From Synechococcus sp. PCC 7335 (GTDB lineage Bacteria; Cyanobacteriota; Cyanobacteriia; Phormidesmidales; Phormidesmidaceae), in contig NZ_DS989904.1 in the NCBI RefSeq assembly GCF_000155595.1, positions 4,147,987 to 4,211,986 on the forward strand: a DNA stretch of 64,000 nt, written 5' to 3'. Made by a program: the position numbers and the translations under genes. Shown here in pieces: positions 3,865-48,069 of the stretch; position 1 is the stretch's first letter; every line of letters starts with the position of its first letter. The notes under the pieces are model-generated. The model worked only from the letters and a program-made list of their open reading frames with translations. It was not told where the DNA came from and did not search any database.

Positions 3865-4503
3865 TCAACACTGTCTTTCTTCTATATTGGGGCTACCTTC
3901 TGTTGTGATGTCTATTTCTTCTCTTCGTAGTATCTCTTGCGCTCTAACGGTATCAGTCACAATCTCCTTTCTCAAAGATACATTCTGATAGGGCACAATT
4001 CGACGGCAAGATAGTGCTTGCTCTTCATAGATACCCATGCGAACAGAGCCGTCTTCAGCAGTTTCAGCTTCCCCTATATCTATTCTTGTTTCTCCACCAT
4101 ATACCGATTCAATCTCGATGATGATTTTCTCTTTGGTGACAGGCACATCCGCGCTGGCGTCAGTTGTCACGATGCGTTTGGATATCTTCACCTCGCCGGT
4201 TTTCACTCTGCGAGTTTGAGCTACAAGCTGCTCTTCATATAGTTCGATAGACGATGGTCTTACCCCAGCAGCGCGACCATCGCTTATAGACATAGAAGGG
4301 TTCGACACAACAGAATCTTTACTCTGTGGTTCTGTAGCTATGTCTCTAGAAGAATCAACTCCTGGTTCGACAGCTGCTTCAACAGGAATTGATTCTTCTA
4401 CTGATCTCATTACAGGAATACGATCATCATCGTTCAAAGGACCAGGCATAATAGCTCCAAGGGCTGAATAAATAATCTCTGCTATATAGTGACCTATCGG
4501 CAC
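3865..4503 (-). CDS. DUF2382 (YsnF/AvaK-type) stress protein without PRC barrel
   Basis: 212 residues from a GTG at 4503; an alternative ATG is at 4449, removing 18 residues. The C-terminal two thirds carry the DUF2382 pattern twice: SIELYEEQLVAQTRRVKTGEVKIS, then GIYEEQALSCRRIVPYQNVSLRKEIV and ILRREEIDI. The first 75 residues are low in complexity and rich in Ser, Asp and Pro. DUF2382 proteins are stress-induced in several bacteria but their biochemical role is not established. It is divergent from the membrane-protein gene at 4773, and a second DUF2382 gene (with a PRC barrel) lies just beyond that one. Confidence 0.8.
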   Translation of the reverse strand: MPIGHYIAEIIYSALGAIMPGPLNDDDRIPVMRSVEESIPVEAAVEPGVDSSRDIATEPQSKDSVVSNPSMSISDGRAAGVRPSSIELYEEQLVAQTRRVKTGEVKISKRIVTTDASADVPVTKEKIIIEIESVYGGETRIDIGEAETAEDGSVRMGIYEEQALSCRRIVPYQNVSLRKEIVTDTVRAQEILRREEIDITTEGSPNIEERQC

Positions 4504-4772
4504 TGAGATCTTCTTCCGTCAAGGGAAAGATAAAGTTTAATAAGAAACATTAAGAGCTAGTAGATCTCCACACTTACCTCATATTTCCGGATTAATTTAT
4601 TATATTCCCTCAATTTGGTATTTATAAACACAGAAAATTCTATACCTTTCGTCTGAATACATTCACTCTTTTGAATGGTTTGTGTCTGCCTACTTCTTTA
4701 TAGGATGAGCCTCTAATTACTTACCTCTTGAGACGTAATGTAATAAACGACCCCTACTGGAGCCTTTGCACT

Positions 4773-5468
4773 ATGGCATATACACCTGATAGAACACCAC
4801 CTGATAGAACAACGCCCGATAGAACAATACCTGATAGAACAAGCTCGAATGTTCATGTCACTTCTGCAACCACGAGCGCCGTACCTGCGAATCCAGTTAT
4901 GGAATATCACGATACCGTTCGCTGGGGTCCTATTTTTGCAGGTATCGTAGTAGCCCTTGTTTCGCAACTGATGTTAAGTGCTTTGGGAGCAGCCGTTGGC
5001 GGATATGCGGCAGGTGAAGCGACGCCTGGTTCGATCGGCACAGGCATAGGGATCTGGGCAATTATCAGCTTATTAATTTCTCTTTTCTTAGGCGCATGGG
5101 CAATGGCAGCTTCCTGTGGTCCGATGAACAAGAAGACAGCAATGCTCAACGCAACCATTATGTGGGCAACGACCCTAGTAATCAGTGGTTGGCTGCTCGC
5201 TAGCGGTGTTTCTGGAGCCTTCGGTGTGATAGCTTCTAGCGCTGGCGGTGCACTTACTCAGGTTATTGAGCCCGGTGGTGCTTCTCTACCTAATCCCGAC
5301 CAAGTTACTCAAGCAGCTCCCAACGTCACCCCCCAAGAAGCGGCACAATATGCAGCGTCAGCAGCCACAGCTAGTATTTCCTTCATCATTGGTTCCTTGC
5401 TGGGATTGGTCGCTGCGCTAATCGGCTCTACAGTTGGCGCAAAGCGGCCTAGAGCTGTTGTTCGATAG
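4773..5468 (+). CDS. Four-helix membrane protein with N-terminal PDRT repeats
   Basis: 231 residues from the ATG at 4773, chosen because GGAG sits about 11 nt upstream and the preceding 15 codons look unrelated. The N-terminus has four 5-residue repeats of PDRT plus one residue. After YHDTVRWGPIFAGIVVAL come about four membrane segments rich in Gly and Ala, and the protein ends in a basic tail. The hydrophobic core resembles the family often labelled PhnA-like membrane proteins, whose function is unknown. It lies between two DUF2382 genes, which suggests an envelope-stress role. A strong terminator follows at 5526. Confidence 0.75.
   Translation: MAYTPDRTPPDRTTPDRTIPDRTSSNVHVTSATTSAVPANPVMEYHDTVRWGPIFAGIVVALVSQLMLSALGAAVGGYAAGEATPGSIGTGIGIWAIISLLISLFLGAWAMAASCGPMNKKTAMLNATIMWATTLVISGWLLASGVSGAFGVIASSAGGALTQVIEPGGASLPNPDQVTQAAPNVTPQEAAQYAASAATASISFIIGSLLGLVAALIGSTVGAKRPRAVVR
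4785..4844 (+). repeat. 15-bp tandem repeat, 4 copies, coding for PDRTx
   Basis: Units: cctgatagaacacca, cctgatagaacaacg, cccgatagaacaata, cctgatagaacaagc. They are in frame in the membrane-protein gene and encode PDRT plus a variable residue. Most differences fall in the last bases of the unit. Confidence 0.9.
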
Positions 5469-5479
5469 ATAACTACTCA

Positions 5480-5511
5480 GCTTTTTGAAGTGACCGCTTT
5501 TTGAAATGACA
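5480..5511. repeat. 16-bp tandem duplication
   Basis: gctttttgaagtgacc is followed by gctttttgaaatgaca (two mismatches), just after the stop codon at 5468. Confidence 0.7.
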
Positions 5512-5525
5512 AATCTTGTTTGCCG

Positions 5526-5562
5526 AGGTGACGTACGTACTACGTCACCTTTCTTCTTTTTT
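5526..5562 (+). terminator. Rho-independent terminator
   Basis: A perfect 10-bp stem (AGGTGACGTA / TACGTCACCT) with a 5-nt loop is followed by TTCTTCTTTTTT. It ends the membrane-protein transcript. The remaining spacer to 5851 is AT-rich and probably holds the promoter of the next gene; I see no gene in it. Confidence 0.9.
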
Positions 5563-5851
5563 AAAGGGGGTTACTAGAAAAGAAGGAGATAGAATAGTGC
5601 ATTTGGCATAGACACGAACACCTCAAAGCTTTTAGAACTCAAGCGTCTAGATAGTCTTTCGGCATCAGCATACATACCCTCTCTTACGTATGACATTTCA
5701 ATACAACAGCAAAAATCATGTCCTCTGTCTAGAAAGAAATATCACTATATGAATAGAAAAAAAATATAAGGCTCTTTCCTATATGCGATGAAAGATAATA
5801 TCTGTTCTTTTAGACTTAGTAGGTACATAACCACTCAAAGAGGTAAAACGT

Positions 5852-6718
5852 ATGGCATTAGTAAGCCTAAAGAACACTTATCCAGACTATAAGAATACTT
5901 TTAGTGACAATAGCCTTAGCCACCTAGACGACTATACCGTCTACGCAGACGGCGACGACAAAGTTGGCTCTGTAGAAGATGGCTTGTTCGATGATACTAC
6001 CGGCCAGTTTCGCTACCTAATTGTGGATACAGGCTTTTGGTTCTTCGGTAAGAAAGTTTTGCTCCCAATCGGTCGTGCTAAGTTTGATAATGCTCAAAAA
6101 CGAGTGTATGTAGCAGGACTGAGTAAGGGTCAGGTAGAGAATCTACCTGAATATAATGAGAGCACAACCGTAGACTATGACTACGAGGAAAATGTACGCG
6201 GCATCTATAGAGAGAACGCAGCTAGTCAGAGTGCTCCGGTCGGTGCTGCTGGCGTAGCGAGTACTGCTGGTACTTACACCCGCGATAACTACACATACGA
6301 TAGAGACCCTGACCTATACGCAGTAGATAATACGGATACGAATCAGCCCATCCGCCTTTATGAAGAGCGTTTGATTGCTGATAAGAATGTCGTCAAAACC
6401 GGTGACGTCGTTGTAGGCAAGCGGGTTGAGGCTGAGACAGCGAAAGTATCTGTTCCGATTGAGAAAGAGAGAGTTGTGGTCGAGCGAACCACACCTACTA
6501 CAACCACCGCTGGAACTACTGCACACGATTTTGCTGAAGGTGAAGTTGCCCGCGTAGAAGTATTTGAGGAGCAAGCAGATATTCGTAAAGAAGCTGTGGT
6601 TCGTGAAGAGGTTTCAGTTAGAAAAGAGCGCGAGCAAGAAGTTGTTAGCGAAGAAGCTACTATCCGCCGAGAAGAGTTGGATGTAGATGCTGGCAGTTCG
6701 ACGGTAATTGATCGATAG
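5852..6718 (+). CDS. PRC-barrel plus DUF2382 stress protein (AvaK-like)
   Basis: 288 residues. Residues about 20-110 form a PRC-barrel-like domain (DDKVGSVEDGLFDDTTGQFRYLIVDTGFW, KVLLPIGRAKFDN). A Tyr- and Asp-rich linker follows. From about 168 to the end is DUF2382, with LYEERLIADKNVVKTGDVVVGKR and then VFEEQADIRKEAVVREEVSVRKE and ATIRREELDV. The domain order is that of cyanobacterial AvaK-like proteins. A good AGAGGT ribosome site precedes the ATG. A terminator follows at 6774. Functionally it is likely linked to the other DUF2382 gene at 3865, by family only. Confidence 0.88.
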   Translation: MALVSLKNTYPDYKNTFSDNSLSHLDDYTVYADGDDKVGSVEDGLFDDTTGQFRYLIVDTGFWFFGKKVLLPIGRAKFDNAQKRVYVAGLSKGQVENLPEYNESTTVDYDYEENVRGIYRENAASQSAPVGAAGVASTAGTYTRDNYTYDRDPDLYAVDNTDTNQPIRLYEERLIADKNVVKTGDVVVGKRVEAETAKVSVPIEKERVVVERTTPTTTTAGTTAHDFAEGEVARVEVFEEQADIRKEAVVREEVSVRKEREQEVVSEEATIRREELDVDAGSSTVIDR

Positions 6719-6773
6719 TTTTTTGCTATCAGAGCAACTTGCTCAGTACAAGCGAATCGTAATAACTTATCAG

Positions 6774-6809
6774 AAGGGTTAGAGGTCAAATGACCTTCAA
6801 ACCCTTTTT
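6774..6809 (+). terminator. Stem-loop terminator after the PRC/DUF2382 gene
   Basis: AAGGGTT pairs with AACCCTT, and an inner AGGTCA/TGACCT continues the stem. The 3' arm runs into CCTTTTTA. The hairpin is T-rich on one side only, favouring plus-strand termination. Confidence 0.75.
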
Positions 6810-6879
6810 ACCTCTGTTGATTTGAATGCTCCGAATAAAAGGTCAATCACGAAGAGCATTACATAAGTGTCAAAAAGCC

Positions 6880-7803
6880 TCAGCTCTCACTTTTTCTTCG
6901 CTGTTGATCGTCCTCTAGTAGATCAAACCGCTTTGGATAAGATAGGCCGTGCCTAGTAAATTCTTTCTTGGCCCTTACTGTTAGATCTGTCTTATAGGCA
7001 AATTCATCTCTAGCATCTAGGGGATAGGAGCGCAGTTTGTACAAACTCCCCCAGCTATGTTCAGACATTACAACTGTAATAGGTAGCTTCAGATGCGTAT
7101 ATTTACTGGTATAGGCAATCCGATACAAGATGTTCTCAACTTGCTCAGGGTTTACTTCGTGGTCTAAATAAAACTCCGTGACAACCTGCGCCTCTAGTTC
7201 GCCCATGTTGGCATTAGAGACAGGGTTAGTCCAAATGTGGCTGTGTGGAATAGTCACGATATTATCGGAGGGAGTCTGCAAGCGAATACCCCTCAATCCG
7301 TAGCTAACAACCTCGCCGTACTCATCTGCGATCGCCACCCTATCTCCAACCCGATATGGCGCTTCAAACAACCCAACGATGCCTGCAATAATCGAGCTAG
7401 CATAATCTTTAAAGGCAAACCCTAGAGCAACCGCAACGGTACCAGTCACTGCTAGTACGTTCTCTCTCGAAAGGTTTAAAAACAGATTCATCAATAGAAT
7501 GACAGTTATCGTCATGACAGTCGTTCGTACAAACGGCTGAAACTGTTTTATCCGTAAGCGATTGTGCCTAGCTACTTGCTCTGATAGCCAGATTACCAAA
7601 GCGTCTACGCCTTTAATAGTCAGATAGCAAACAACAATAATAATCAGCGCCTGAAGAATCTTTGGCCCAGTAATTTTGCTAATCAACTCTCTAGTTTGAT
7701 CGGCTGCCTCTCTAGCGGAGTCTTGAGTTGAGTTTTGTGCCGACCCCGGGGTTGATTGTGCTATCAGCATCCTTATCAAGGGCTTTCTAAATAGATCAAT
7801 CAT
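6880..7803 (-). CDS. Small-conductance mechanosensitive channel (MscS family), first of three
   Basis: 307 residues. Hydrophobic helices lie at about 50-73 and 92-111, followed by the pore helix 116-147 (VLAVTGTVAVALGFAFKDYASSIIAG) and the MscS beta domain starting at FEAPYRVGDRVAIADEYGEV. The length fits the compact three-helix MscS class. The C-terminus is short and charged. MscS channels release solutes on hypo-osmotic shock. It is convergent with the PRC/DUF2382 gene and downstream of the winged-helix gene at 7866-9323, probably in the same transcription direction. Confidence 0.9.
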   Translation of the reverse strand: MIDLFRKPLIRMLIAQSTPGSAQNSTQDSAREAADQTRELISKITGPKILQALIIIVVCYLTIKGVDALVIWLSEQVARHNRLRIKQFQPFVRTTVMTITVILLMNLFLNLSRENVLAVTGTVAVALGFAFKDYASSIIAGIVGLFEAPYRVGDRVAIADEYGEVVSYGLRGIRLQTPSDNIVTIPHSHIWTNPVSNANMGELEAQVVTEFYLDHEVNPEQVENILYRIAYTSKYTHLKLPITVVMSEHSWGSLYKLRSYPLDARDEFAYKTDLTVRAKKEFTRHGLSYPKRFDLLEDDQQRRKSES

Positions 7804-7865
7804 CTATGACTTATTCCTATTAAGCTACCTTCATCAATCTAATTACTATCGCTTCTTGCTCTATT

Positions 7866-9323
7866 TCATGATGTCATAATGATGAAATTGTTGTTCGCTA
7901 GCTCTCTTTTTAGTCTTGGGTAGTGAATTGGGTTAGTTTTAATCACGCCGTTCTTCTGTTCAATAACACCCTCGTTGCGCAGAACTTGAACCTGATTGTT
8001 AACAACTTGGGGAGAGTCTCCTAGACTTTCTGCTAATGCATCAATGGTAAGGTCGCCATGAAGCATCAGTGCATACAGCAGATATAAATCGCTTTGACTA
8101 AGCTCCGGGAGAGGCGGTAGTTTTGGTAGCTGAGCAACAATTTTGACAGGTTGGGTACTGCCTTGATTGGGCTTCTGATTGGGCTTCTGACTAGACTTCT
8201 CCAGAGTGCCTTGCTTATTCACATGGCCCTTTTTCAACCCCCGACTTAGCCCTTTATTTGAACCGCTGTCCATGCAACTACCGGTATCGCTACCCGTGGG
8301 ATAGTCAGTATCTTTTTCGTAGCGTAGTGACCTGATGAATAGCTGCAGTGCTACGATGCTTATCCCATCTGAGATATTAGCTAGACGGTTGAAATACTCA
8401 AGTTTTGGGCTAGCGCTCTGCGTATCACTGTCGTGATCAATCGCCTCTTTGACAAAACGTACGGAAGACTTTACTGTTGCTGTTGCCTCTTGAGCAATCT
8501 CTGAAAGTGTTTCAACTGGCTTGTCAATAGAAAAACTAACATCTTTCAGCTGGTTTGGATTTCCTAGACGTTTGTGTAGGGCTGCATCACTGAAGTGAAT
8601 ATCAAACTGACTGATAATAGGATCTAGCCATTCCTGAAGCTGTTCTCCAGATAGACTGGGTAGGTGCAACACTTGGTCGCAGTAGGCATGAAATTTGAGG
8701 GTAGACTTTAAATACTCCCAGCCAATTTGTCCGCAGCCTAGCACCATGAACTGACTTGAGTCGTTCATTACCGTATCTTGCATATAGTCAATACCATCTA
8801 GACCTTGGACACTTCGTAAAAAGCACCAACAAAGATTAGGAATAACAGTGAGCTGCTTCGCACTAGGCCGCTCCATTTCATCAGACTTCGGTGCGACCGG
8901 ACCGATTTCTTTCTCTAGTCTTCTTCGAATGTTTGCGCCATGTGGCGGACGCTTCACCCAATCTAGTAGTTTAAAAGTTATCTGCTTGTTCTCAATATCC
9001 AACCTAGAAAGACTTTCCCCTAGGATCAAAGAAACTGGCAAGACAGGCTGAGCTAGAAAAACTATAGAGTTATTAGCGCTATTGGGATTTTCCATCCATT
9101 GTGCGATCGCGCTATTTAAAGGATCTAATATAGCCTGTGTTGCAGAAGGATGAGCTGATAGATCATTTGCTGCATCTATCAGCGCACTAGCGACCTCATC
9201 TGGTAGATTAGCGAGGGCTTCTTCTGGCTCTGGCGCAAGATGAGTATCCTTAGCAAACCAACCTACTCGAAAGAAACGTTTGTCGAGTAGCCAATCTCTG
9301 AATTTGGAGGCTTGTTTGGCCAT
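7866..9323 (-). CDS. Unknown protein with C-terminal winged-helix-like domain
   Basis: 485 residues. I do not recognise the family. The first about 340 residues look soluble and alpha-helical with no motif I can name. A low-complexity linker around 345-395 contains KPNQKPNQ repeats. The C-terminal about 75 residues (LSQSDLYLLYALMLHGDLTIDALAESLG, then VNNQVQVLRNEGVIEQKNGVIK) read like a winged helix-turn-helix. It lies between two mscS genes on the same strand, so a regulatory or accessory role with them is possible but unproven. The ATG at 9323 is the only good start. Confidence 0.6.
   Translation of the reverse strand: MAKQASKFRDWLLDKRFFRVGWFAKDTHLAPEPEEALANLPDEVASALIDAANDLSAHPSATQAILDPLNSAIAQWMENPNSANNSIVFLAQPVLPVSLILGESLSRLDIENKQITFKLLDWVKRPPHGANIRRRLEKEIGPVAPKSDEMERPSAKQLTVIPNLCWCFLRSVQGLDGIDYMQDTVMNDSSQFMVLGCGQIGWEYLKSTLKFHAYCDQVLHLPSLSGEQLQEWLDPIISQFDIHFSDAALHKRLGNPNQLKDVSFSIDKPVETLSEIAQEATATVKSSVRFVKEAIDHDSDTQSASPKLEYFNRLANISDGISIVALQLFIRSLRYEKDTDYPTGSDTGSCMDSGSNKGLSRGLKKGHVNKQGTLEKSSQKPNQKPNQGSTQPVKIVAQLPKLPPLPELSQSDLYLLYALMLHGDLTIDALAESLGDSPQVVNNQVQVLRNEGVIEQKNGVIKTNPIHYPRLKRELANNNFIIMTS
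8165..8200 (-). repeat. 12-bp tandem repeat, 3 copies, in the linker of the winged-helix protein
   Basis: gattgggcttct occurs twice in a row and then as gactagacttct. On the coding strand it gives the Gln-Lys-Pro-Asn repeats. The frame is preserved. Confidence 0.85.
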
Positions 9324-9556
9324 AGTGATTTAGTAGTGCAGCTATTTCCTTCTGCCTCTATCAACAGAGCTCTATAGTCATTCCCATAAGCGCTTCGCTC
9401 ATCCCGATATAAACCCTAAATTCAGACAAGAAGCGGATTCATACCATGAGACAACCCAATACCTCAGTAGCTCACTAAAACACAACCTACTAACGTCCGA
9501 CCCATCGATATGGGGATATGTAAAACATGGGTATGCTCGCAGATTATGTCGGGTAA

Positions 9557-9612
9557 CTATTTGCTGAGTAGCTATCTGTTGGATATCTATTTGTTGGATA
9601 TCTATAGTATAG
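9557..9612. repeat. 15-bp tandem repeat abutting the stop codon of mscS
   Basis: Units: ctatttgctgagtag, ctatctgttggatat, ctatttgttggatat, then a partial ctatagtatag. The following CTA at 9613 is the stop codon of the mscS gene on the minus strand, and it continues the repeat phase. The rest of the 9324-9612 spacer shows no gene. Confidence 0.85.
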
Positions 9613-10707
9613 CTATTGACCGTTTTCTGTTTGCTCGCGCTGTCTTTTGACCATTGTTAGCACAGAGCGAGAAAGATTGAGTGCTCTAGGCGAGTCTCCT
9701 TCTGGCTGAACAGGCCACCCTTCTCGTTGCTTGGCTCTATTCCCGTCAGTTTCCTCGGTCTGATCATGGAAGAGAACCTGTTGAGTGGGAAAGGGTAGAT
9801 CTATTCCAGCAGCAACCAACTCGTTACATACATTTTCTAGAACCCAATCTCTTGATGCTACCATGTCAGCCTGTCTCGGCGGTTCAATCCACCAGCGAGC
9901 TCGGATGTTAATTGTGCTATCTGCTAGCGCGACAACTAGTGCTTCTGGTGCGGGATCTTTGATGACTTCATTGCGGCTACTGAGGGTTCTAAGGATGATT
10001 TTCTTCGCTTGGGCGATATCATCGCCATAGCCAATTCCGATATCGTATTCTAATCGTCTACGATCATAAGCAGTATTGACGATGACTGCGTTAGTAAAAA
10101 GTTCTGCATTAGGAATCACTACCCGGCGACCATCATAAGTGCGAATAGTCGTTGCTCTTGTCTGAATGTGTTCTACAGTTCCTTCGTAGCCATTAAAGAT
10201 AATTTGATCGTTTAGCTTGAAAGGTTCTGTTAGCAGAATTAATATACCCGCTAGGAAGTTCTGTAGAATATCTTTAAAGGCAAAGCCAATAGCAACACCG
10301 CCAATACCCAAAGCTGCTAGAGCGTCAGCAGGATTAAAGCTAGGAAAAATGATAGTAGCCGCAATTAGGAAACCTAGAATAACCAGCCCCCCTTGAATCA
10401 AACGACCAAAAACTAGACCAACGTTGCGCGTGTCTCGATGTTTGGTTTGCCGTCGAATAAAAGATCGAACAAATCTACCTAGAATCCAAAAAAGGATAAA
10501 GATGACAATGCCGATAACAATATTTGGAAGCAGTGCGATCGCCCCTTGAATCATACTTGAGAGCTTTTCCGTTGCTGCTGAAAGTGAAATACTATTTTCC
10601 ACGTTTTTCTTAGAGAATCCTATCAACTTTGTATACAAGAGCACAGTATAGAACAAGATGTAACCTATTCCTCTATCTGTGAATGGACCAAGCTTAGAAA
10701 GAATCAA
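9613..10707 (-). CDS. Mechanosensitive channel, MscS family, second of three
   Basis: 364 residues from a TTG at 10707. That start is uncertain: a GTG at 10602 would remove 35 residues, and the family helix TM1 only begins near residue 60. Helices lie at about 60-77 and 104-121, and the pore helix at 129-158 contains ALAALGIGGVAIGFAFKDILQNF. The beta domain follows at EPFKLNDQIIFNGYEGTVEHI. A charged C-terminal tail of about 50 residues is absent from the other two copies in the window. Same strand as the winged-helix gene downstream. Confidence 0.88.
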   Translation of the reverse strand: MILSKLGPFTDRGIGYILFYTVLLYTKLIGFSKKNVENSISLSAATEKLSSMIQGAIALLPNIVIGIVIFILFWILGRFVRSFIRRQTKHRDTRNVGLVFGRLIQGGLVILGFLIAATIIFPSFNPADALAALGIGGVAIGFAFKDILQNFLAGILILLTEPFKLNDQIIFNGYEGTVEHIQTRATTIRTYDGRRVVIPNAELFTNAVIVNTAYDRRRLEYDIGIGYGDDIAQAKKIILRTLSSRNEVIKDPAPEALVVALADSTINIRARWWIEPPRQADMVASRDWVLENVCNELVAAGIDLPFPTQQVLFHDQTEETDGNRAKQREGWPVQPEGDSPRALNLSRSVLTMVKRQREQTENGQ

Positions 10708-11046
10708 CAGGGTTTTGTTGCTTCAGTAAGATCTGCAAAGACTATACAAATTTCCGAAAGCTTTAGCTAACAGTAGATTACCCAACCACATAAGTAAGAC
10801 TGCACCTGAACTGCACCGCGTCGTTACAAACATGGAATACAAAGCATCAAAAAGAGCTAACCGGAACATCTTCTCGGTTAGCCCTTTTTCTTATTGATGG
10901 CGTTTGCTCAGCAGCTCGTTGCTAGACTTAGTCAAACGATAATCAACGATACTTATAGTTGTAACGCTTTGATAGGTATGGTTGTTTCGATGCGGTCATA
11001 AAAACCAATGTCAAAACACCAATACAAAGTAACTACTATAAGACAA
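10708..11046. other. Spacer of 339 bp holding a bidirectional terminator
   Basis: Apart from the hairpin at 10856-10889 I see no gene or RNA. The promoter of the mscS gene should lie in its left part. Confidence 0.5.
10856..10889. terminator. Bidirectional stem-loop terminator
   Basis: A perfect 8-bp stem, GCTAACCG / CGGTTAGC, with an 11-nt loop. It has CCTTTTT on its right and, read on the minus strand, CTCTTTTTG on its left. It lies downstream of the minus-strand gene at 11047-11409. Confidence 0.85.
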
Positions 11047-11409
11047 CTATGGAGTGATTTCTTCTAACGCTTCTTGAATGTTTTCTTCGACAGAAGTAGC
11101 GCTCGAGTCTTTAGGACTATACATGTTCTCCTTATCCCCTGCACCCTGCACGCCATTTAACCCCTCAGCGGAGTTCTTCATAACGCTCTTGCCATCGTTA
11201 TTGCTAGAAAGCTTGCCAGAGATTGTGTTCTCAGACTTTTTTTGGACGGTGTTTAACTGCTCCAAACCCTTCGAAGGACTAGAGTTGCTACCGCCGATAG
11301 CAAGCGCCGGAGCAGCACTAGTGAAGAGGAAAACCGCACAGACAGCCGCGATCACAAATGGACGGAAGCTAGCAGTCAACGTTGAAAGATAGTTGAGTAT
11401 CTTTTTCAT
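11047..11409 (-). CDS. Exported low-temperature-induced-like protein
   Basis: 120 residues. A signal peptide is clear: KK at the start, hydrophobic FVIAAVCAVFLFTSAAPALA, probable cleavage after ALA at about residue 37. The mature part is hydrophilic, with GLEQLNTVQKKSENTISG and GLNGVQGAGDKENMYSPKDSSA and an acidic end. This pattern is that of small cyanobacterial proteins annotated as low-temperature-induced; their molecular role is unknown. AGGAG lies 8 nt before the ATG. The CsbD-like exported gene upstream on the same strand ends about 160 bp away. Confidence 0.75.
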   Translation of the reverse strand: MKKILNYLSTLTASFRPFVIAAVCAVFLFTSAAPALAIGGSNSSPSKGLEQLNTVQKKSENTISGKLSSNNDGKSVMKNSAEGLNGVQGAGDKENMYSPKDSSATSVEENIQEALEEITP

Positions 11410-11569
11410 GGAAATTTCTCCTGAGAATTTAAAAGATGAACGAGTCGAGTAACACAGTTTGCTCTGTAGGCTACTTGCTAGACAGCTAGCTTTATAGAAA
11501 GTCCTTCAACTCGACTCAATTTTAGGCTAGGACATAGCTACTCTATACAAGGAGTGCAGTTAACAATTC

Positions 11570-12004
11570 CTAATTAAAGAAGTCCTTAATAGATTCAACT
11601 ACGCCACCAGTAGCGTCTTCGACGTCGTCAGCAGCGTCAGCAGCAGCACCTTTGGTCCGGCCAATGTCGCGCTTTACCTTGCCCTCTAGTTGGTCAGTCG
11701 CTCCGTCTATCTTATTAGCAGCGCTGTCCATATCTAAAGAGTCTTTGGTTGCACCGACACCACGCTTGATTGTACCAACTGCACTATCAACAGCTCCTTC
11801 AACTTGGTCACTAGCACCAGCACCAGCAACCCTATCTAGCTCAGCAGCAGCCCGCTCGTTGACGACATCAGCTGCCGCTTGTGAGCCAACTGCATACGCA
11901 GATGCTACGGAACTGCCAAAGATCGCAATAGTCACCATCACCAGACAGGCTGCGCGAAAAAACCACTGCCTTAGCGCATTCAAACGTTGGTCAAGAACAA
12001 CCAT
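11570..12004 (-). CDS. Exported CsbD-like stress protein
   Basis: 144 residues. A signal-anchor or signal peptide (WFFRAACLVMVTIAIFGSSVASAYA) ends near residue 38. The mature part is low in complexity and rich in Ala and Asp, with repeated GAVDSAVGTIKRGVG and DQLEGKVKRDIGRTKGAAAD motifs like CsbD stress proteins, predicted amphipathic helices. CsbD proteins are general-stress proteins of unknown mechanism. AAGGAGA lies about 8 nt before the ATG. Its promoter must be in the palindrome-rich spacer 12005-12613. Confidence 0.75.
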   Translation of the reverse strand: MVVLDQRLNALRQWFFRAACLVMVTIAIFGSSVASAYAVGSQAAADVVNERAAAELDRVAGAGASDQVEGAVDSAVGTIKRGVGATKDSLDMDSAANKIDGATDQLEGKVKRDIGRTKGAAADAADDVEDATGGVVESIKDFFN

Positions 12005-12082
12005 CCTAACGTCTCCTTATTATTCCTAAAATAATTTAGTCAGCTCCTTAATAGAATCGCTTTATCGATCCTAGCCCCATCC

Positions 12083-12096
12083 ATCTTCCGGAAGAT
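12083..12096. promoter_or_regulatory. 14-bp perfect palindrome
   Basis: ATCTTCCGGAAGAT, about 79 nt upstream of the CsbD-like gene start. Possible operator; no regulator is identified. Confidence 0.4.
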
Positions 12097-12193
12097 TCGA
12101 GTGCATCTATAGAAAGAAACAATTGTCTATGCTCGCCCAGGATCTCTACTTATCTAGAGAGCTTGACATTCTAACTGTCTATAGAAACCTTGT

Positions 12194-12215
12194 GAGTTCT
12201 TCAATTGAAGAACTC
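12194..12215. promoter_or_regulatory. 22-bp perfect palindrome
   Basis: The left arm GAGTTCTTCAA is followed immediately by its reverse complement TTGAAGAACTC, with no loop. A loop-free dyad suits a dimeric regulator better than an RNA hairpin. There is no T-run on either side, so it is not a terminator. Confidence 0.5.
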
Positions 12216-12278
12216 CCACTTGCCCGCTGCTAGCACAACCTAGCGCTACTGAACTTAACAGGCCCTAACAGATAATCC

Positions 12279-12345
12279 GTGATAGGCATAGTGCAAAGAA
12301 GCATTTGTACTGAAGACTGGTTCTATAGTCCATCTGGCCTATCAC
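12279..12345. other. Candidate structured RNA or long inverted repeat
   Basis: Arms GTGATAGGC (12279-12287) and GCCTATCAC (12337-12345) are perfect complements around 49 nt, inside which GACT and AGTC can form an inner stem. Whether it is transcribed is unknown. Confidence 0.3.
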
Positions 12346-12613
12346 ATAAGGGTTTCAAACGTTTCCTCCTTAATAGATATAAGAGGAATGATCCATCTCT
12401 ATCCTTTGTGGTGCGGCATAGTCATAATTTTAGATAAAATAAGAGCTATCCTACGAAGGATATGCACCAAAAGGGTACGGCGTCTACATTAGATAGTTAA
12501 TCTACTTGATGATGAATTGAGCAAGCATTCTTTGTTAACTCTCCTTCTTGTGACCTATCGTAGCTCAGCCCTGATTATGAATAACAGTTCGTCAAACCAA
12601 GAGAAAAGGTAAT

Positions 12614-12655
12614 ATGGAAACAACTGAGCAGCGGATGGAGTCAACTGAGCAGCGA
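12614..12655 (+). repeat. 21-bp tandem duplication including the start codon
   Basis: Seven codons are repeated head to tail: METTEQR at 12614-12634 and MESTEQR at 12635-12655, with three base differences. Confidence 0.9.
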
Positions 12656-13033
12656 ACTGTTGGACAAATCGAACGGGAGCTTTCACAAAAGATACAGGCG
12701 CTTTACAAAAAGCATCTGGGTCAACAACCCAGTAAAGTGTCATGTCAACTATTTAGTCGAAAGCTTGTCGTTGTTCTAGAAGATTCGGTGACTCAGCCAG
12801 AGAAGCTACTTTTCGAAGAAGGGCAGTTAGAACTAGCGGAGAAAGTTCGTACGGATTTAAACGAGGCGATGCAGCCTCAGATCAAGACATTAGTTGAAGA
12901 AATACTAGGCGTTGACGTTCTAGACCTACTGTGCGACGCAGCCATCGAAACAGGCAGAATTGGTATTATCGTTGTCCTATCAGACGCACCGAAAGTCCGT
13001 AATCCAGAAGCTATTCCTAAGCTAAAGAAGTAA
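12614..13033 (+). CDS. DUF2294 family protein
   Basis: 139 residues. After a duplicated N-terminal heptad (METTEQR MESTEQR) the protein follows the DUF2294 pattern: QIERELSQKIQALYKKHLGQQPSKVSCQLF, then LVVVLEDSVTQPEKLL, then VRTDLNEAMQPQIKTLVEEILGVDVLDLLCD. The family is short and cytosolic; function is unknown. Because the duplication includes an ATG, either 12614 or 12635 could be the start. GAGAAAAGG upstream favours 12614. It is monocistronic, in a cluster of stress genes. Confidence 0.85.
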   Translation: METTEQRMESTEQRTVGQIERELSQKIQALYKKHLGQQPSKVSCQLFSRKLVVVLEDSVTQPEKLLFEEGQLELAEKVRTDLNEAMQPQIKTLVEEILGVDVLDLLCDAAIETGRIGIIVVLSDAPKVRNPEAIPKLKK

Positions 13034-13598
13034 AGCATTTAGCGAAGCTAATCAAAATCCCTGTTTTAGGAAATTTTGTGTCCTCAGAAACTCTGGGTTC
13101 TGCGCAATAAGTTTCGCGTGATGAGTTTTAGTGAATTAATCAGATAAGATAAGCTTTCTGCTGTAATGCTGGTCTTGAAAGTGTTGGTCGTGAAATTACG
13201 GCCTCGGATACAGCGGTTCGAATAGAATCTGCTACTGACCTACCATAGAACACTGGAGGTCTGTAAGAGCCATAGCGGTATATGTGCAAAGAGAATATAT
13301 ATCAGAAGGTAGGCCTCTGCTTTAGCTTTATTCCTTCTATTGATTGACTAGTCCCTTGTACGCACCATCTTAATATCTTTAGTGACTAGACAAGCTTGGC
13401 AAAGAGAGTTGTGTCGATGGGTTCCTTCGGCTCCTGTTTACAGGCTAATTTATTTTTGTAAAGATGACTCTAATTCTCTTAGAGCTGCTTCTCTAGTCTT
13501 TATCTACGAGTATGTTTCATCTATAGGCAGTCATACTTGTGAAATCTTGCGTACATAGCGCAGATACTTTCGTTTAAAAGAACTACTGGAGCATTTTT
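13034..13598. other. 565-bp spacer without a visible gene
   Basis: No ORF with coding character on either strand. A weak imperfect hairpin at 13053-13078 (CAAAAT / ATTTTG) lies after the DUF2294 gene but lacks a T-run. The right part should hold the promoter of the DUF2267 gene. Confidence 0.5.
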
Positions 13599-14387
13599 AT
13601 GGCAATAGAGTTAAAAGAGGATCTTGCATACATCTTGCTGAAGAAGATGAGCGATCGCCCAGACTCGTCTGAGCCGCTTCCCTTGAGCTTGACAGCAGCA
13701 GATTTTGTCGGCCGCAATACCGACAGAACTGAGATTCTGGCGCACCTTGACTACATGAACCAGAAAGGGTACATCAAGGCAGACTTCTCCGGAGATGCTT
13801 ACGCCGACTCAGGTCCTAACCCACTGCCAGATAATGTAGAGCTTCAGTCTGTTGAGCTTACACCCAGTGGCCAGGACCTGTTTAAAAGGATGAGCGAGAA
13901 TCCTCCTGAAGGCCTGCAGTCAGGGCCAAGTACGCCGATTGCGACTAAAGATATGGACTTTTTGAAGAAGGTCATGCTCAAAGGCCATATCTCTGATATC
14001 TACGATGCCAGAGACCTTACAGAGATAGTCTTTCGCACCATGCGAGACCTAATGACCACAGAAGCTGCAGGCAATGTCGCTAGCGAACTGCACACATCCG
14101 CGGTCGATACTGACAAGAAAGCAGCTCAAGAAGAGGTTGCTGATTTGTGGAAAGACTCTAATCCGTTGGTTCGGTTCCTGAGTCAGATTCGACCTAAGCT
14201 GAAGTTTGATGATAAGACCTTCTTTTTTAGAATCGAGAAAGAAGGAGGGTTGCCAAAAACCACTGGTCCACAAACAGTCGTCAAGGCAGTCTTTAGCGCC
14301 ACTAAAGAAGAACTTTCTAACGAGCGAGTTGCTGAGATAGCAGAGTTCATGCCGGGTGAAGTTCGTACATTATGGGAGGAAGCATAA
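13599..14387 (+). CDS. Winged-helix-like domain plus DUF2267 protein
   Basis: 262 residues. Residues 1-105 (LAYILLKKMSDRP, DRTEILAHLDYMNQKGYIKADF, VELTPSGQDLFKRM) look like a winged helix. Residues about 115-262 match DUF2267: SDIYDARDLTEIVFRTMRDLMTTEA, LTTE-type helix, and the ending ATKEELSNERVAEIAEFMPGEVRTLWEEA. DUF2267 has no established biochemical role. The gene is followed after 3 nt by the 100-residue gene at 14391, so the two probably form an operon. Confidence 0.8.
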   Translation: MAIELKEDLAYILLKKMSDRPDSSEPLPLSLTAADFVGRNTDRTEILAHLDYMNQKGYIKADFSGDAYADSGPNPLPDNVELQSVELTPSGQDLFKRMSENPPEGLQSGPSTPIATKDMDFLKKVMLKGHISDIYDARDLTEIVFRTMRDLMTTEAAGNVASELHTSAVDTDKKAAQEEVADLWKDSNPLVRFLSQIRPKLKFDDKTFFFRIEKEGGLPKTTGPQTVVKAVFSATKEELSNERVAEIAEFMPGEVRTLWEEA

Positions 14388-14390
14388 ATT

Positions 14391-14693
14391 ATGGCAACGA
14401 CCGACAACAATCCAAGCGGACACGATCCAAGAGAACCCAATCAGCCGGGGACCGAAAATATTAACCCTGGTGATAAGGAAGCGCCTCCGGGTACTTCTGT
14501 GGAAGAAAAGGGCGAGAAGACTGCCGTGGCCTATGAAGATGCTACCGGCAATCCAGTTGAGGTGCCAACCTACTTCACTGTAGAAGGCGAAGACGGCGAG
14601 AAAGAAGCACTACATCACGTGAAGGATGCAGAAGAGATTTCCGACGTGATCCGCCAGGCGCGCACAGATGAAGAGGGCGATCGCAAATGGTAG
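14391..14693 (+). CDS. Small acidic hydrophilic protein, unknown
   Basis: 100 residues, almost no hydrophobic core in the first half (Asn, Pro, Glu, Gly rich), then a short ordered part (AYEDATGNPVEVPTYFTVEGEDGEKEALHHV) and a helical end. I do not recognise a family. The ATG is 3 nt after the DUF2267 stop, with GGGAGG inside the end of that gene, which supports translation and co-expression. Confidence 0.65.
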   Translation: MATTDNNPSGHDPREPNQPGTENINPGDKEAPPGTSVEEKGEKTAVAYEDATGNPVEVPTYFTVEGEDGEKEALHHVKDAEEISDVIRQARTDEEGDRKW

Positions 14694-14994
14694 TAATAAG
14701 CATACCAAGCTAAAAACTAAGCTAAAAAAACAAGTCTGCCTTTCACATCCTTCACCTAGCTTCTGTAGTTATGAGTGCTTGATATAGCGATTGAGGCCAG
14801 AGCCGGTTCGAGCTGGTTCAATTGCGCTTGCACAATTGCTAACATTGGCGGTAGCCTAGTTTCCGACAGCTCATCATAGAGAGCCCCTATCTGAGTGGCT
14901 TGTCTGTGGTGAGCTTTTCGATGATAAATGCAGCTAGTCATCTGAAAGGTAGTCGTCTAGGTACATACATCTAGATATAGGTGAAGGGACCGAT
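14694..14994. other. 301-bp spacer with a 12-bp duplication
   Basis: aagctaaaaact and aagctaaaaaaa are tandem at 14707-14730. A minus-strand ORF of 61 codons (14756-14941) has no upstream ribosome site or recognisable family and is not called. Confidence 0.45.
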
Positions 14995-15900
14995 ATGGAT
15001 ATGTTGCTCGAAGAAATCCGAAGTAAGCTGGTTGATATAGCGGCGCAGGCGATCGTTGTCTTTCCTCAGATTATTTTGGCAGTGATTATTCTGCTGCTCA
15101 CCCGAACGGTAGCTAATCTGGTTCGCCGAGGCATGCACAGAGTAGCCTCGAGAACGCTCAAGAGTCTTTCCCTACAGTCTTTGCTTGTTCAGACCAGCTT
15201 CGCGGCAACGTGGACTGCTGGTATTCTGTTTGCCTGTATTATCGCTTTTCCTGATCTTGGGTTTGGTGATTTAATTGCTCTGTTAGGACTAGGCTCAGTT
15301 GCCATAGGTTTTGCTTTTCAAGACATCTTCAAAAACTTTTTATCTGGCGTTTTACTGCTACTCCAAGAGCCTTTCTCAATAGGAGATCAAATTATCGTCG
15401 ATAGCTTTGAAGGCACTGTCGAAGAAATTGCGCTGCGCTCCACACAGATCAGAACCTATCAGGGTGAGCTAGTTGTGGTGCCCAATTCTATTGTCTTTAC
15501 TAGTCCGGTACAGGTGATGACAGGTAGGCCAAGCAGGCGGACCGATCTAGCAATTGGCGTAGACTACAATACACCCCTATCCCATGCAGTCAGAACGCTG
15601 ACGGAAGCTGCTAGAAGTGTCGAAGAAGTCACTTCTAATCCGGCAGTCGAGGTGGACATCGTCGGCTTTGGTGATAGCTCTATTGATATGGTCGTGCGCT
15701 ACTGGACCCGATCAGATCAGGCCTCTGTTCGCCGATTAAAGACGCAGATGATGCTAGTTCTGAAGAAAGCTTGTGATCAAGCAGATATCAATATTCCATA
15801 TCCTATTCGTACGATCTATCACTTTGATCAGGAAAAATACAGTGATAACGCTCGCATAGAAGACGCGAATGGTCGTTCACAAACACCCACACATAAGTGA
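14995..15900 (+). CDS. Mechanosensitive channel, MscS family, third of three
   Basis: 301 residues. Helices at about 19-41 and 66-85, pore helix about 90-122 (DLIALLGLGSVAIGFAFQDIFKNFLSG), then the beta domain EPFSIGDQIIVDSFEGTVEEIALRSTQIRTYQGELVVVPN. It is closer in pattern to the 9613 copy than to the 6880 copy, judging by the TRTYDGRRVVIPN-like stretch. GAAGGG precedes the ATG at a suitable distance. It is on the opposite strand from the other two channels and has no close operon partner. Confidence 0.9.
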   Translation: MDMLLEEIRSKLVDIAAQAIVVFPQIILAVIILLLTRTVANLVRRGMHRVASRTLKSLSLQSLLVQTSFAATWTAGILFACIIAFPDLGFGDLIALLGLGSVAIGFAFQDIFKNFLSGVLLLLQEPFSIGDQIIVDSFEGTVEEIALRSTQIRTYQGELVVVPNSIVFTSPVQVMTGRPSRRTDLAIGVDYNTPLSHAVRTLTEAARSVEEVTSNPAVEVDIVGFGDSSIDMVVRYWTRSDQASVRRLKTQMMLVLKKACDQADINIPYPIRTIYHFDQEKYSDNARIEDANGRSQTPTHK

Positions 15901-37821: not shown

Positions 37822-40800
37822 TTAGGTCTGAGCAGCTTGGCTCTGGGTAGTAGTCTGACCAGTAGAGCGACCAATGCCTGTTGTTCTACTTAATATCCTA
37901 GCGGTTCTGCTCCTGGCGCCGCTGATATAGGTAAAGAATACGGGAATGACCACTAGCGTTAGTAGCGTAGAGGTTGAGAAGCCACCGATGACTGCGATCG
38001 CCATCGGACTGCGCGTTTCACCGCCTGCCCCGAGTTCCAAGGCAATCGGTACCATCCCTGCCACCGTTGAGATCGAAGTCATCAAAATCGGTCGCAGTCT
38101 GGTAATTCCCGCTTCGATCACCGCCTGACGCCGCGACTTCCCTTCTCTCATCGCAATCAGCGCATAGTCCACTAGCAAAATCGAGTTCTTCGTCACCAGA
38201 CCAATCAGCAGTACGATGCCGATCAACGCGAATAATCCCATCGGCTTTTGCGCGACTAGTAGCCCCATCAACGCACCACCAACGCACAGCGGCAGTGCCA
38301 TCATCACAGCAATAGGATACAAAAAGTCGTTGTACAACAGCACCAACACGGCATAGATCATCAAGATCGCCGTGCCTAGCGCTAGCCCAAATCGGCTAAA
38401 GACTTCCTGCTGGATCTCAGCATCGCCTGTTGACTGCTCTCTGACACCATCAGGTAAGTTTTGCATGATGGGTAGCTCACCAACGGCCTCGATAGCTTGA
38501 CCTAGCGTGATACCCTGAAGGTTAGCACCGACAGTGATCTGGCGAGAGCGATTGAAGCGATCGATCTGAGCAGGGCCGCTACCAAAACTGATATCGGCAA
38601 CTGCAATTAGCGGCACCATCTGACCATTTTGACCGGGTACTTGCAGGTTCTCTAGTGTGCTTAGATCATCAACAGCCTCGGGGGCTAATCGCACACGAAT
38701 AGGAATCTGGCGATCGCCCACATCGAAATCAGCTAGGTTTGATTCACTATCGCCCAGCGTTGCCAAAGAAGCCGTCCGAGCAATGCTACTTACCGACACG
38801 CCTAAATCTGCGGCTCTAGCCGGATCGGGTCGAATCAAGACCTCTGGCTGCACCAGCGAGGCGGTAGAGTTCACTTCCACCATGCCTGGAATCTGTCGCA
38901 CCTGCTGAGTCAGATCTTGAGCGGTTCGCGTCAGCAGCTCAGGATTTTCACCCGTGAGAACCAGTTCATAATCTTTGCCACCACCGCCCGCACCCTGACT
39001 GACAAAATTAATTCTAACGCCCGGAATAGTTTGAAATTCTTTGCGGAGCTGCTCCTCATAGAGGCTGCGCTCTATTCGTTCTTCTTTGGGCTTTAGCTGT
39101 ACAGAAGCGGAGGCATCGCCTGGGGTGTTGGTCATGAACACATCTTCTGTCGCAGGTTTAGAAAGGAGAAGATTGGTAACGCGATCGCTCACCAGCTCCG
39201 TTCTTTCCAAAGTCGTTCCCGGTGGTAAAGAGATACTAATAGAGGTTCGACTAGTATTACCTGAGTCAAACAGACTAGTCGGTAAGAACCGGGCCAAGTT
39301 CATACTGCCAATGAAGAACAATAGTGCTAGCACAATCGTAATCAGGCGATGATTTAGCGCTGTGTTCAACAGTTTATGGTACGGCAACAGATAGCGCGGC
39401 ACCCGTAGCCCATCAGCAGCAACGACTGTGTTTCCCTCATTACCTCCATCGGCTGGTTTGAGCAAATAGGCCGCCATCATGGGACTTACTAGTCGGGCCA
39501 CCAGCGTAGAGAACATCGTTGCTACCGCTACCGTCACGCCAAACGGCTTGAAGAACTGGCCTGGAATTCCTCCCATGAAAGCAACTGGAAGGAATACGGC
39601 AACAATTGTCGCCGTGGTGGTGACGACGGCTAAGCCAACTTCTGCTGTCGAATCGATTGCAGCTTTAAAAGGTGGCTTACCCATTTGAATGTGACGCTCG
39701 GTATTCTCAATTTCTACGATCGCATCGTCTACTAGGTTGCCAACCGCCAATGTCAATGCCAGCAGAGACATACTGTTGAGCGTGTAGCCTAACGCTTGCA
39801 AAACCAGAAAAGTGGGGATGATTGAAAGCGGCAGCGCCGTCGCGGTAATCAGCGTTGTCCGCCAGTTGCGGAGGAAAAGACCCACCACAATCACCGCCAA
39901 AATGCAGCCTAGTATCAGCGCATCAATAGACGCTTGATACGAGTCTCTAATGTCGGTGCCTTGGGTGAACGTCAGCTCAAAAGTGATATCTTCTGGCAGC
40001 GTCTGCTCAAGCTCAGCGATCGCCTCTGTGACCGAGTCTTCTACCGTGACTACCACGCTACCCTTACTGCGATAGACCCGAAAGCCTACCACTGGCTGAC
40101 CATTTAGATAGGCAGACTGGCGGATTTCGCCAAAGTCGTCTTCGACTGAGCCCAAACTACTAAGCGGCGTAGTTCCCCCAGCCGGTAAGACAATTTGTAG
40201 CGATCGCAGCTCATCTACCGTTGCTGCACTGCCTAGCGTCCGAATGCCTTGCTCTATCCCCGAGATATCGCTGCGGCCCCCCGGCAAGTTGATATTAAAC
40301 TGGCGAATTTGGTCATTCACCTCAGTCGCTGTGATACCTAAGGCGTTGAGCTGAGCTGGATCGAGATTTACACGGATCTCTCTATCGACACCACCGACTC
40401 GGTCAACTCTAGCCACGCCTTCTGCTGCTAGAAGTTTGCGGCCAATCTCTCTATCAACAAGATCGCTAATTTCTTCGACTGAGCGCTGATCTGAGCCAAC
40501 GGTATAGATGACAACAGGCCCACCAGAAAACTCTAGCCGCTGCACAATTGGGTCGCTCGCATCTTCCGGAAAATCTTGGCGAATCCGGGTAATCGCATCA
40601 CGAACATCATTAGTAGCCTGGTCAGTATCAACCCCCAAATTAAATTCAATGACTGTTTCTGACGATCCGTCACTCACAGTCGAGGTCAGCGAGTCAATGT
40701 TGCCAAGACCGGCCACTGCATCTTCTATCTTTTTAGTGATCTGGTTTTCCATCTCGGCAGGGCCAGCGCCTGTCTGGGTCACCTGCACCTGTACCGCTGG

Positions 40801-40929
40801 CACATCGATATTCGGATTGGCATCAATGCCCAGATTGCCAAAGGCAACTAAACCTGTGATCGTGAGTACCAAAAATAAAACAATCGTCGGCACCGGACGC
40901 CGAATTGACCATTCAGAAATGTTGAACAT
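37822..40929 (-). CDS. RND efflux transporter, AcrB/HAE1-type inner-membrane pump
   Basis: 1035 residues, full length. Twelve-helix pattern with two large periplasmic loops. Start FNISEWSIRRPVPTIVLFLVLTITGLVAF; proton-relay TM4 motif VGNLVDDAIVEIENTERH; TM10-11 region VLLIGLVTKNSILLVDYALI with a conserved Lys. This is the drug/solvent efflux class rather than the heavy-metal class. Its adaptor lies 2 nt upstream on the same strand (40932-42344). No outer-membrane TolC gene is in the window. Confidence 0.94.
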   Translation of the reverse strand: MFNISEWSIRRPVPTIVLFLVLTITGLVAFGNLGIDANPNIDVPAVQVQVTQTGAGPAEMENQITKKIEDAVAGLGNIDSLTSTVSDGSSETVIEFNLGVDTDQATNDVRDAITRIRQDFPEDASDPIVQRLEFSGGPVVIYTVGSDQRSVEEISDLVDREIGRKLLAAEGVARVDRVGGVDREIRVNLDPAQLNALGITATEVNDQIRQFNINLPGGRSDISGIEQGIRTLGSAATVDELRSLQIVLPAGGTTPLSSLGSVEDDFGEIRQSAYLNGQPVVGFRVYRSKGSVVVTVEDSVTEAIAELEQTLPEDITFELTFTQGTDIRDSYQASIDALILGCILAVIVVGLFLRNWRTTLITATALPLSIIPTFLVLQALGYTLNSMSLLALTLAVGNLVDDAIVEIENTERHIQMGKPPFKAAIDSTAEVGLAVVTTTATIVAVFLPVAFMGGIPGQFFKPFGVTVAVATMFSTLVARLVSPMMAAYLLKPADGGNEGNTVVAADGLRVPRYLLPYHKLLNTALNHRLITIVLALLFFIGSMNLARFLPTSLFDSGNTSRTSISISLPPGTTLERTELVSDRVTNLLLSKPATEDVFMTNTPGDASASVQLKPKEERIERSLYEEQLRKEFQTIPGVRINFVSQGAGGGGKDYELVLTGENPELLTRTAQDLTQQVRQIPGMVEVNSTASLVQPEVLIRPDPARAADLGVSVSSIARTASLATLGDSESNLADFDVGDRQIPIRVRLAPEAVDDLSTLENLQVPGQNGQMVPLIAVADISFGSGPAQIDRFNRSRQITVGANLQGITLGQAIEAVGELPIMQNLPDGVREQSTGDAEIQQEVFSRFGLALGTAILMIYAVLVLLYNDFLYPIAVMMALPLCVGGALMGLLVAQKPMGLFALIGIVLLIGLVTKNSILLVDYALIAMREGKSRRQAVIEAGITRLRPILMTSISTVAGMVPIALELGAGGETRSPMAIAVIGGFSTSTLLTLVVIPVFFTYISGARSRTARILSRTTGIGRSTGQTTTQSQAAQT

Positions 40930-47301: not shown

Positions 47302-48069
47302 CTAATGCGGTTGTTCCTGTTTTATTCTTCCCTGCATTCTCTCTTGCTTTCGCTTATAAAACTGAGAGGCCGCTATCCCAAAGCTGTACAAAATACCTGC
47401 GTTGCTGCTTGCGCCGACAGCCGCTCCCACAACGGGAATTAGCTCTACTACGCTCAATCCAGTTTTCACCGCGCTAGAGGTACCCAACGACAGCGTGAAG
47501 ATAGTCAGCGCCTCACCTTTTCTAGCCGGAGCGTTCACATCAAACTCGTAGGCGGCAGCCACTCGATAAAGCATCTCTGACTGTAGGGCCGAGATTGCTG
47601 CTACGTCAATCGCGAACAATCCTAGCGCCACTGGCGGAACAATGTTTGTCGCGAAGCCTACCCCACCCGCTTTAATGGTCGTGTCTATAACAATCCGGTG
47701 CGCAATCTCTTCATCCGACTCATATGGATGCTCCGCTTTTAGCTTCACGACATCTGCTACGGCTTTCTCCTTATCTACTCTGCCCAGGGCACTGGTTAGC
47801 CATTTAAACCCAGGTACCTTTGCTACGTAGTCCACAGCCGAGTTTTCGGCAATCGGTTCTAGCGTTTTACCCACGCTCTCGGTTGTTTGCTCTAAGGCAG
47901 AATGAGCCGATTCTGTAGCAACCTCACTGACAATAGAAGTCGTCTCGAGTGCAGATTTAGAGACCTTATTAAATATTTGGGTCCCAACAGCTGAGACCAA
48001 ACCACCCAGCTGCTCTGCTGTGAAGAAGGCTTGAGCAAAGGAATCTGATACGCTCTGGGGGGTAGTCAT
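47302..48069 (-). CDS. EcsC-like/DUF697-like protein
   Basis: 255 residues. The second half reads VDTTIKAGGVGFATNIVPPVALGLFAIDV-like with QSEMLYRVAAAYEFDV, GEALTIFTLSLGTSS, and IPVVGAAVGASSNAGILYSFGIAA, the pattern of EcsC/DUF697-related cyanobacterial proteins. Two or three weakly hydrophobic helices suggest membrane association. Role unknown. Convergent with glcF, downstream spacer 181 bp without a gene. Confidence 0.65.
   Translation of the reverse strand: MTTPQSVSDSFAQAFFTAEQLGGLVSAVGTQIFNKVSKSALETTSIVSEVATESAHSALEQTTESVGKTLEPIAENSAVDYVAKVPGFKWLTSALGRVDKEKAVADVVKLKAEHPYESDEEIAHRIVIDTTIKAGGVGFATNIVPPVALGLFAIDVAAISALQSEMLYRVAAAYEFDVNAPARKGEALTIFTLSLGTSSAVKTGLSVVELIPVVGAAVGASSNAGILYSFGIAASQFYKRKQERMQGRIKQEQPH

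Follow-up and report, generated by a model that had tools for sequence, protein, structure and literature searches.

Mechanosensitive channels of the MscS family are known as stand-alone safety valves, and regulators of the MalT/STAND type are tethered to a transporter. We know of no MscS channel that has a soluble partner of its own, and none of the literature matches listed concerns an MscS with a partner of the type discussed here. The present analysis concerns a 12 kb block of genes, labelled A to L in their order along the window, that is, the whole 64,000-nucleotide stretch of Synechococcus sp. PCC 7335 DNA that was analysed (contig NZ_DS989904.1, positions 4,147,987 to 4,211,986). The block splits into three units: unit 1 (A-B-C), unit 2 (G-H, divergent from I-J-K-L), and unit 3 (F-E-D). 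An earlier note on this DNA had read it as one coordinated stress module; the genes do lie together, but they do not make up a single system. It is, on balance, probably a lineage-specific assembly of three separately conserved units drawn from the envelope/osmotic stress repertoire of larger cyanobacteria, with its novel core in the E-D pair, in which channel D has E as a dedicated soluble partner. Two genes, E and K, were absent from the list in the earlier note, and the two-gene channel-partner system was overlooked because E was missing.

Gene D (6880..7803, minus strand) encodes an MscS channel (PF00924, E = 1.9e-18) of a subfamily tied to E by its phyletic pattern, and gene E (7866..9323, minus strand) encodes the partner protein, with an N-terminal region of no known family and a C-terminal winged helix. 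There is good support for regarding these two genes as a pair. In a phylum sample of 292 genomes, own genome included, in which the searches for E and D scored no more than the 6 or 7 best candidates of each genome, the E profile matched 24 genomes, a 41-residue match restricted to the helix-turn-helix (HTH) in genome G066 having been set aside from the count. The D protein also matched 24 genomes at ≤1e-40, the weakest match being 1e-77, with none between 1e-77 and 1e-40. Both sets consist of the same 24 genomes (Fisher p = 1.1e-35, relatedness not corrected), which span 17 genera according to the D tally. E comes first and the matched parts are separated by 200 nt or less in 24 of the 26 E-D pairs, and one further pair is spaced by 760 nt (G090).

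A set of 38 genomes (own plus relatives) was searched for DUF2267, DUF2382, E, and MpsC, and 20 regions were aligned to the window genes. E was present in 15 of these genomes. Beyond the window genome (G000) and its closest relative (G002, the matching locus being that of Cf. Phormidesmis sp. LEGE 11477), a D-type MscS gene followed E in 13 of the 14 E loci retrieved, and in the fourteenth the contig stops at E. The E and D frames overlap by 1-4 nt in four loci (L193, L194, L200, and L202), and in genome G238 a single 711-codon frame spans both. Between the E and D parts of this frame lies a hydrophobic stretch, which would leave E in the cytosol and the N-terminus of the MscS outside. Genome G204 carries two tandem E-D pairs (L215/L229, G204:C102:3994-8003), with one stop codon in the second E, and one stop codon was also observed in the E gene of G242 (L208, G242:C22:17803-19032).

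All Pfam matches of E better than 0.02, among 14 orthologues, were winged helix or HTH domains; the window's own E matched HTH_24 with 24.3 bits against a cut-off of 21.9 (E = 2.3e-5). When the E profile was compared with solved structures, the best 11 matches (0.0004 to 0.26) were winged-helix regulators, the first being the CggR domain (E = 4.2e-4). Nothing useful was found as a family match outside the winged helix, and a search of PHROGs gave weak matches only, the best at 0.0082. Most of the protein lies outside the winged helix, and many invariant residues fall in that part in the alignment of orthologues. E has one hydrophobic segment, residues 87-105, where a strand and the first part of a helix are predicted; this segment is read as part of a soluble domain.

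The C-terminal winged helix, with HTH_24 above its cut-off and a likeness to CggR, would also suit a conventional transcription factor controlling the channel operon in which it is encoded, without contact with the channel itself. This explanation is considered rather unlikely, given that the recognition-helix region varies among orthologues (as judged by eye), that E stands ahead of D with overlapping frames in several genomes, and that the bulk of E, with many of its invariant residues, lies outside the winged helix; the one-frame fusion in G238, if real, would moreover tie such a factor to the membrane. The preferred reading is that E would bind the D channel from the cytosol and set when D opens, a mechanism of action that we infer. 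Its N-terminal region may serve as the sensor, and the winged helix may serve in assembly or DNA contact. A bolder proposal is that the pair constitutes a mechanosensitive signalling device, in which E is carried on the cytosolic face of the D channel and a change in tension releases or reshapes it, whereupon E acts on DNA or on other partners. Such a device would turn osmotic shock directly into gene expression, although this proposal is regarded as very doubtful.

The pair is common to cyanobacteria and a gammaproteobacterium. Among 72,556 plasmid records, searched with E from locus L193 as the query at 0.01 and with D from the window at 1e-30, each protein matched one record, in both cases the 1.8 Mb replicon of Halomonas sp. 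PA16-9 (NZ_CP040452.1). On this replicon, an open reading frame (ORF) with 25% identity to the C-terminal half of E lies 40 nt ahead of an MscS gene whose product has 38% identity to D over 232 residues. Searching with both Halomonas proteins yielded no second plasmid record for either. Just upstream, in another frame, a sequence resembling the N-terminal half of E was noticed by eye (L258), and the E-like gene extends over two frames, because the gene is disrupted or because the sequence contains an error.

Unit 1 comprises gene A (3865..4503, minus strand), gene B (4773..5468, plus strand), and gene C (5852..6718, plus strand). The description of A and C as two DUF2382 (YsnF/AvaK) proteins is confirmed by Pfam (PF09557, E = 4.6e-23 and 9.1e-29, respectively), and C also has a PRC barrel (PF05239, 1e-12); both exceed the TIGR02271 cut-off of 49.75 bits in NCBIfam, with 54.6 and 62.8 bits, and are supported by synteny. 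Gene B encodes a membrane protein of no named family with four hydrophobic stretches, an orthologue of which lies between A and C in relatives. Its ORF opens with a TTG at 4728, the ATG at 4773 being the likelier start, and the label "PhnA-like" given to 4728-5468 had no Pfam match and nothing above an NCBIfam cut-off.

Unit 2 opens on the minus strand with gene G (11047..11409) and gene H (11570..12004), both coding for proteins with an N-terminal hydrophobic, signal-like segment. Gene G, a small protein with orthologues in relatives, had been called low-temperature-induced, a name for which no family above cut-off was found in Pfam or NCBIfam. The CsbD-like assignment of H is retained in part, since a CsbD match is present (E = 1.6e-5) but reaches 25.1 bits against the Pfam cut-off of 40; synteny also supports the gene. 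On the plus strand follow gene I (12614..13033), correctly recognized as DUF2294, a family that Pfam now names MpsC (PF10057, 1.8e-36); gene J (13599..14387), the DUF2267 gene as stated (PF10025, 9.3e-25), with an N-terminal part that is weakly winged-helix-like according to AlphaFold and Foldseek; gene K (14391..14693), a 100-residue hydrophilic protein without a Pfam match; and gene L (14995..15900), the third MscS (PF00924, 1.7e-21), also supported by synteny. The three MscS channels of the earlier note, D, F, and L, all pass the Pfam cut-offs, with D reaching 66.7 bits in the MS_channel beta domain against a cut-off of 20.2. Its remark that each gene has long spacers applies in part, but the D-E gap measures 62 nt and the J-K gap only 3 nt.

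In the Phormidesmis/Leptolyngbya group, units 1 and 2 are both retained, at separate locations. The order of unit 1 is kept in G000, G001, G002, G003, G005, G006, G009, and G016, with a longer PRC-DUF2382 protein in place of A in G009 and G016; in G004, A and C are on two separate short contigs. All of unit 2 is present in G000, G001, G002, G003, G006, and G009; MpsC was not found in G004 in the search of the 38 genomes, and the contig of G005 begins at I. In the stretches fetched from the eight unit-2 genomes (G000-G006 and G009, several of them drafts), the three units are joined only in G000 and G002. The conserved neighbourhood proposed for the whole block in relatives therefore does not hold, being found in only two of eight genomes with unit 2 or part of it, and whole-block conservation was rejected, the full grouping being confined to G000 and G002 among the aligned relatives.

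A DUF2267 alignment scan of named genomes yielded 311 relatives, and the analysis was continued with the 80 best. Among these best 80 of 311, unit 2 or part of it was found in eight loci (L109-L116), seven from the Phormidesmis/Leptolyngbya group and one from Vasconcelosia minhoensis. In eight more (L149, L152, L162, L169, L170, L173, L174, and L177, from Microcoleus, Tychonema, and two other records), MpsC occurs upstream of J on the same strand. Another cluster family was nearby in six of the remaining 64 loci (L123, L134, L144, L145, L154, and L158), this being an MscS only in L123, L145, and L158; in the other 58, J was without another cluster family in the stretch examined.

Gene F (9613..10707, minus strand; PF00924, 3.7e-21), the second MscS of the block, may be co-made with E-D. 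It directly precedes E in G000, G002, G003, G006, G105, and an uncultured Pleurocapsa, and the F-E-D order is found also in G002, G003, and G105. Unit 2 genes and E recur together in four other loci (L201, L261, L262, and L144). The locus of G105 contains F, E, D, a third MscS, a G-like gene (a distant orthologue of G, with 34% identity, in L261), and K; that of G016 contains MpsC, K, an MscS, E, and D; that of G154, an MscS, J, D, and E; and that of Pleurocapsa (L144), E, F, and J. Three linked cases occurred outside the own genome in 25 gene-genome pairs, G016 being counted once, with a chance probability of about 1e-4 that assumes uniform placement in 4.5 Mb and an 8 kb limit chosen after the cases had been seen. 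As units 2 and 3 are again neighbours in these four loci, the osmotic neighbourhood of the earlier note is partly right. DUF2382 was near E in none of the eight other sampled genomes holding both, the two being on different contigs in drafts. In G003, the F-E-D operon lies about 1 kb from a gene (L189 10895-13993) whose start resembles, by eye, that of a large RND-type transporter gene; the RND-type transporter gene of the window (37822-40929) is some 27 kb away, which suggests local rearrangement.

A somewhat unlikely alternative is that stress genes, the E-D pair excepted, drifted together by chance and are uncoupled. The units are indeed on separate contigs or far apart in other relatives. 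This account sits poorly with the repeated proximity of units 2 and 3 and with the crowding of channels: 14 MscS genes were found in the 5.97 Mb assembly, and three of these lie inside 8,115 nt of the block (P = 0.0018 under random placement). The GC content of the block is 0.43-0.47 versus 0.48-0.51 in its surroundings. Elsewhere in the window, the product of 47302-48069 resembles, by eye, an EcsC-type protein in the parallel cluster of G105 (L261 9236-10267).

Several observations weigh against the assembly of separate units around a dedicated channel-partner pair. E and D are unlinked in G092, lying 420 kb apart, and in the L144 locus E stands beside F, while the 3.3 kb examined past E contain no D. 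The identity of the E and D genome sets derives from searches restricted to those best-scoring candidates in each genome. The G238 fusion was seen in a single draft genome. E and D are separate in its two sampled congeners, G039 and G101, and the fused frame still contains an ATG for D, so that a lost stop codon or an assembly error is possible. The AlphaFold model of E is poor (pLDDT 43.7, built from 3 sequences), too poor for a structure search, and at that confidence its alternating alpha/beta look is only a hint of the fold. Among the plasmid records, the window's own E had no match at 0.01, only its cyanobacterial relative from L193 having matched, and there are just four loci outside the own lineage in which units 2 and 3 are linked.

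The opposite view, that the whole 12 kb is one osmotic, desiccation, and cold module whose genes are expressed together under stress, is judged distinctly unlikely. The strand pattern forms four alternating blocks (A; B-C; D-H; I-L), and the whole 12 kb is therefore not one transcript; the full grouping, moreover, was seen in no genome but G000 and G002. Two observations favor the single module: G105 has a parallel cluster with three MscS genes, a G-like gene, and K, and the families of I, J, K, and DUF2382 tend to be present in the same genomes of the phylum sample. MpsC was found in 23 of the 292 genomes, J in 36, K in 38 (own included), and DUF2382 in 56; I and J share 20 genomes, J and K 32, I and DUF2382 20, and J and DUF2382 31, far above expectation in statistics uncorrected for phylogeny and genome size. 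Where they co-occur, these families are mostly unlinked. Larger genomes carry more accessory families, an effect that was not controlled for, and the overlap is therefore read as a shared repertoire rather than a complex. The overlap with the E/D set is weaker, with 11 genomes for J (expected 3.0), 8 for I (1.9), 9 for K (3.1), and 9 for DUF2382 (4.6). What stands of the coordinated module is thus the recurrence of units 2 and 3 as neighbours and the co-occurrence of families; the full grouping limited to two genomes and the scatter of the genes in most genomes do not agree with it. On account of their families and co-occurrence, units 1 and 2 may supply AvaK-type, small exported, MpsC, DUF2267, and K proteins to the same physiological response.

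One report also speaks for the single module: CsbD-like and AvaK-like genes rose together in an alkane-overproducing Nostoc strain (PMC7660261). Another describes a rise of all0459 under drought and of its cluster, all0457-all0459, in the cold (PMC4103569), and the reference list of a third cites a study of OrrA controlling avaKa (PMC13131328). When the upstream regions of nine cluster genes of the window and L069 were scanned for SigB/SigF-type promoters, three matches appeared, two at A in the window and one at B in L069. This frequency is close to background, which counts against a single module. A palindrome near ACTCAAAAGAGT was spotted by eye in the gap alignment and is hence post hoc; it is commoner in unit-1 gaps, occurring 5 times in 7.5 kb versus 15 times in 191 kb (eight loci). 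It was absent from 8.2 kb of other gaps (five loci), unit-2 gaps among them, where fewer than one is expected from background, and it neither ties the units together nor argues against a tie. No regulatory pattern common to units 1 and 2 emerged from the two patterns tried, which do not amount to a full motif search. The A-B gap (window 4665-4676) holds a near-palindrome, ACTCTTTTGAAT, seen again in G002 and twice in G009, which is a post hoc candidate operator for the AvaK pair. The H-I gap (12005-12613), compared in eight loci, has a patch that is conserved in several relatives; it lies upstream of H, around CATCCATCT...GATTC, and is possibly a promoter or operator.

The structure of J was modelled from 59 sequences, the window protein and 58 of the 78 full-length relatives listed, with a pLDDT of 79.7. 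Its sole Foldseek match below 1e-3 was a Thermus protein of unknown function (2ysk), followed by weak PadR/MarR winged helices, and these matches therefore point to no new function for J. MpsB/DabA (PF10070) was found in none of 18 genomes, including that of the window, MpsA not having been searched for, and membership of gene I in an MpsABC system was rejected for want of an MpsB/DabA partner in these 18 genomes. A study of Staphylococcus aureus states that deletion of mpsC caused no growth defect and that mpsC is found apart from mpsAB outside staphylococci (PMC6689103).

The former "stress cluster" is thereby resolved into units with separate histories, with MpsC, DUF2267, K, and AvaK as the recurring associations. 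Gene I is like the MpsABC/DabAB bicarbonate uptake systems by its MpsC Pfam family, but differs in that no MpsB/DabA was found. A and C are like the AvaK/YsnF stress proteins, passing the cut-offs of TIGR02271 and DUF2382, and differ from them in being paired around the membrane protein B. E is like the MalT/STAND-type regulators as a soluble winged-helix protein genetically tied to a membrane protein; it differs in the absence of the Walker A motif GxxxxGK[ST] from all 39 E sequences examined (some being the same gene fetched twice), that from L224 alone fitting a relaxed pattern. D, F, and L are like the MscS family (PF00924/PF21082) in beta and C-terminal domains above the Pfam cut-offs, and D differs as a subfamily seen only with E in the 292 genomes. 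As this subfamily was never without E in the sample and was once in the same frame, a dedicated partner may control some bacterial tension channels, and E-D offers a small, testable two-gene system alongside the stand-alone valves of the family.

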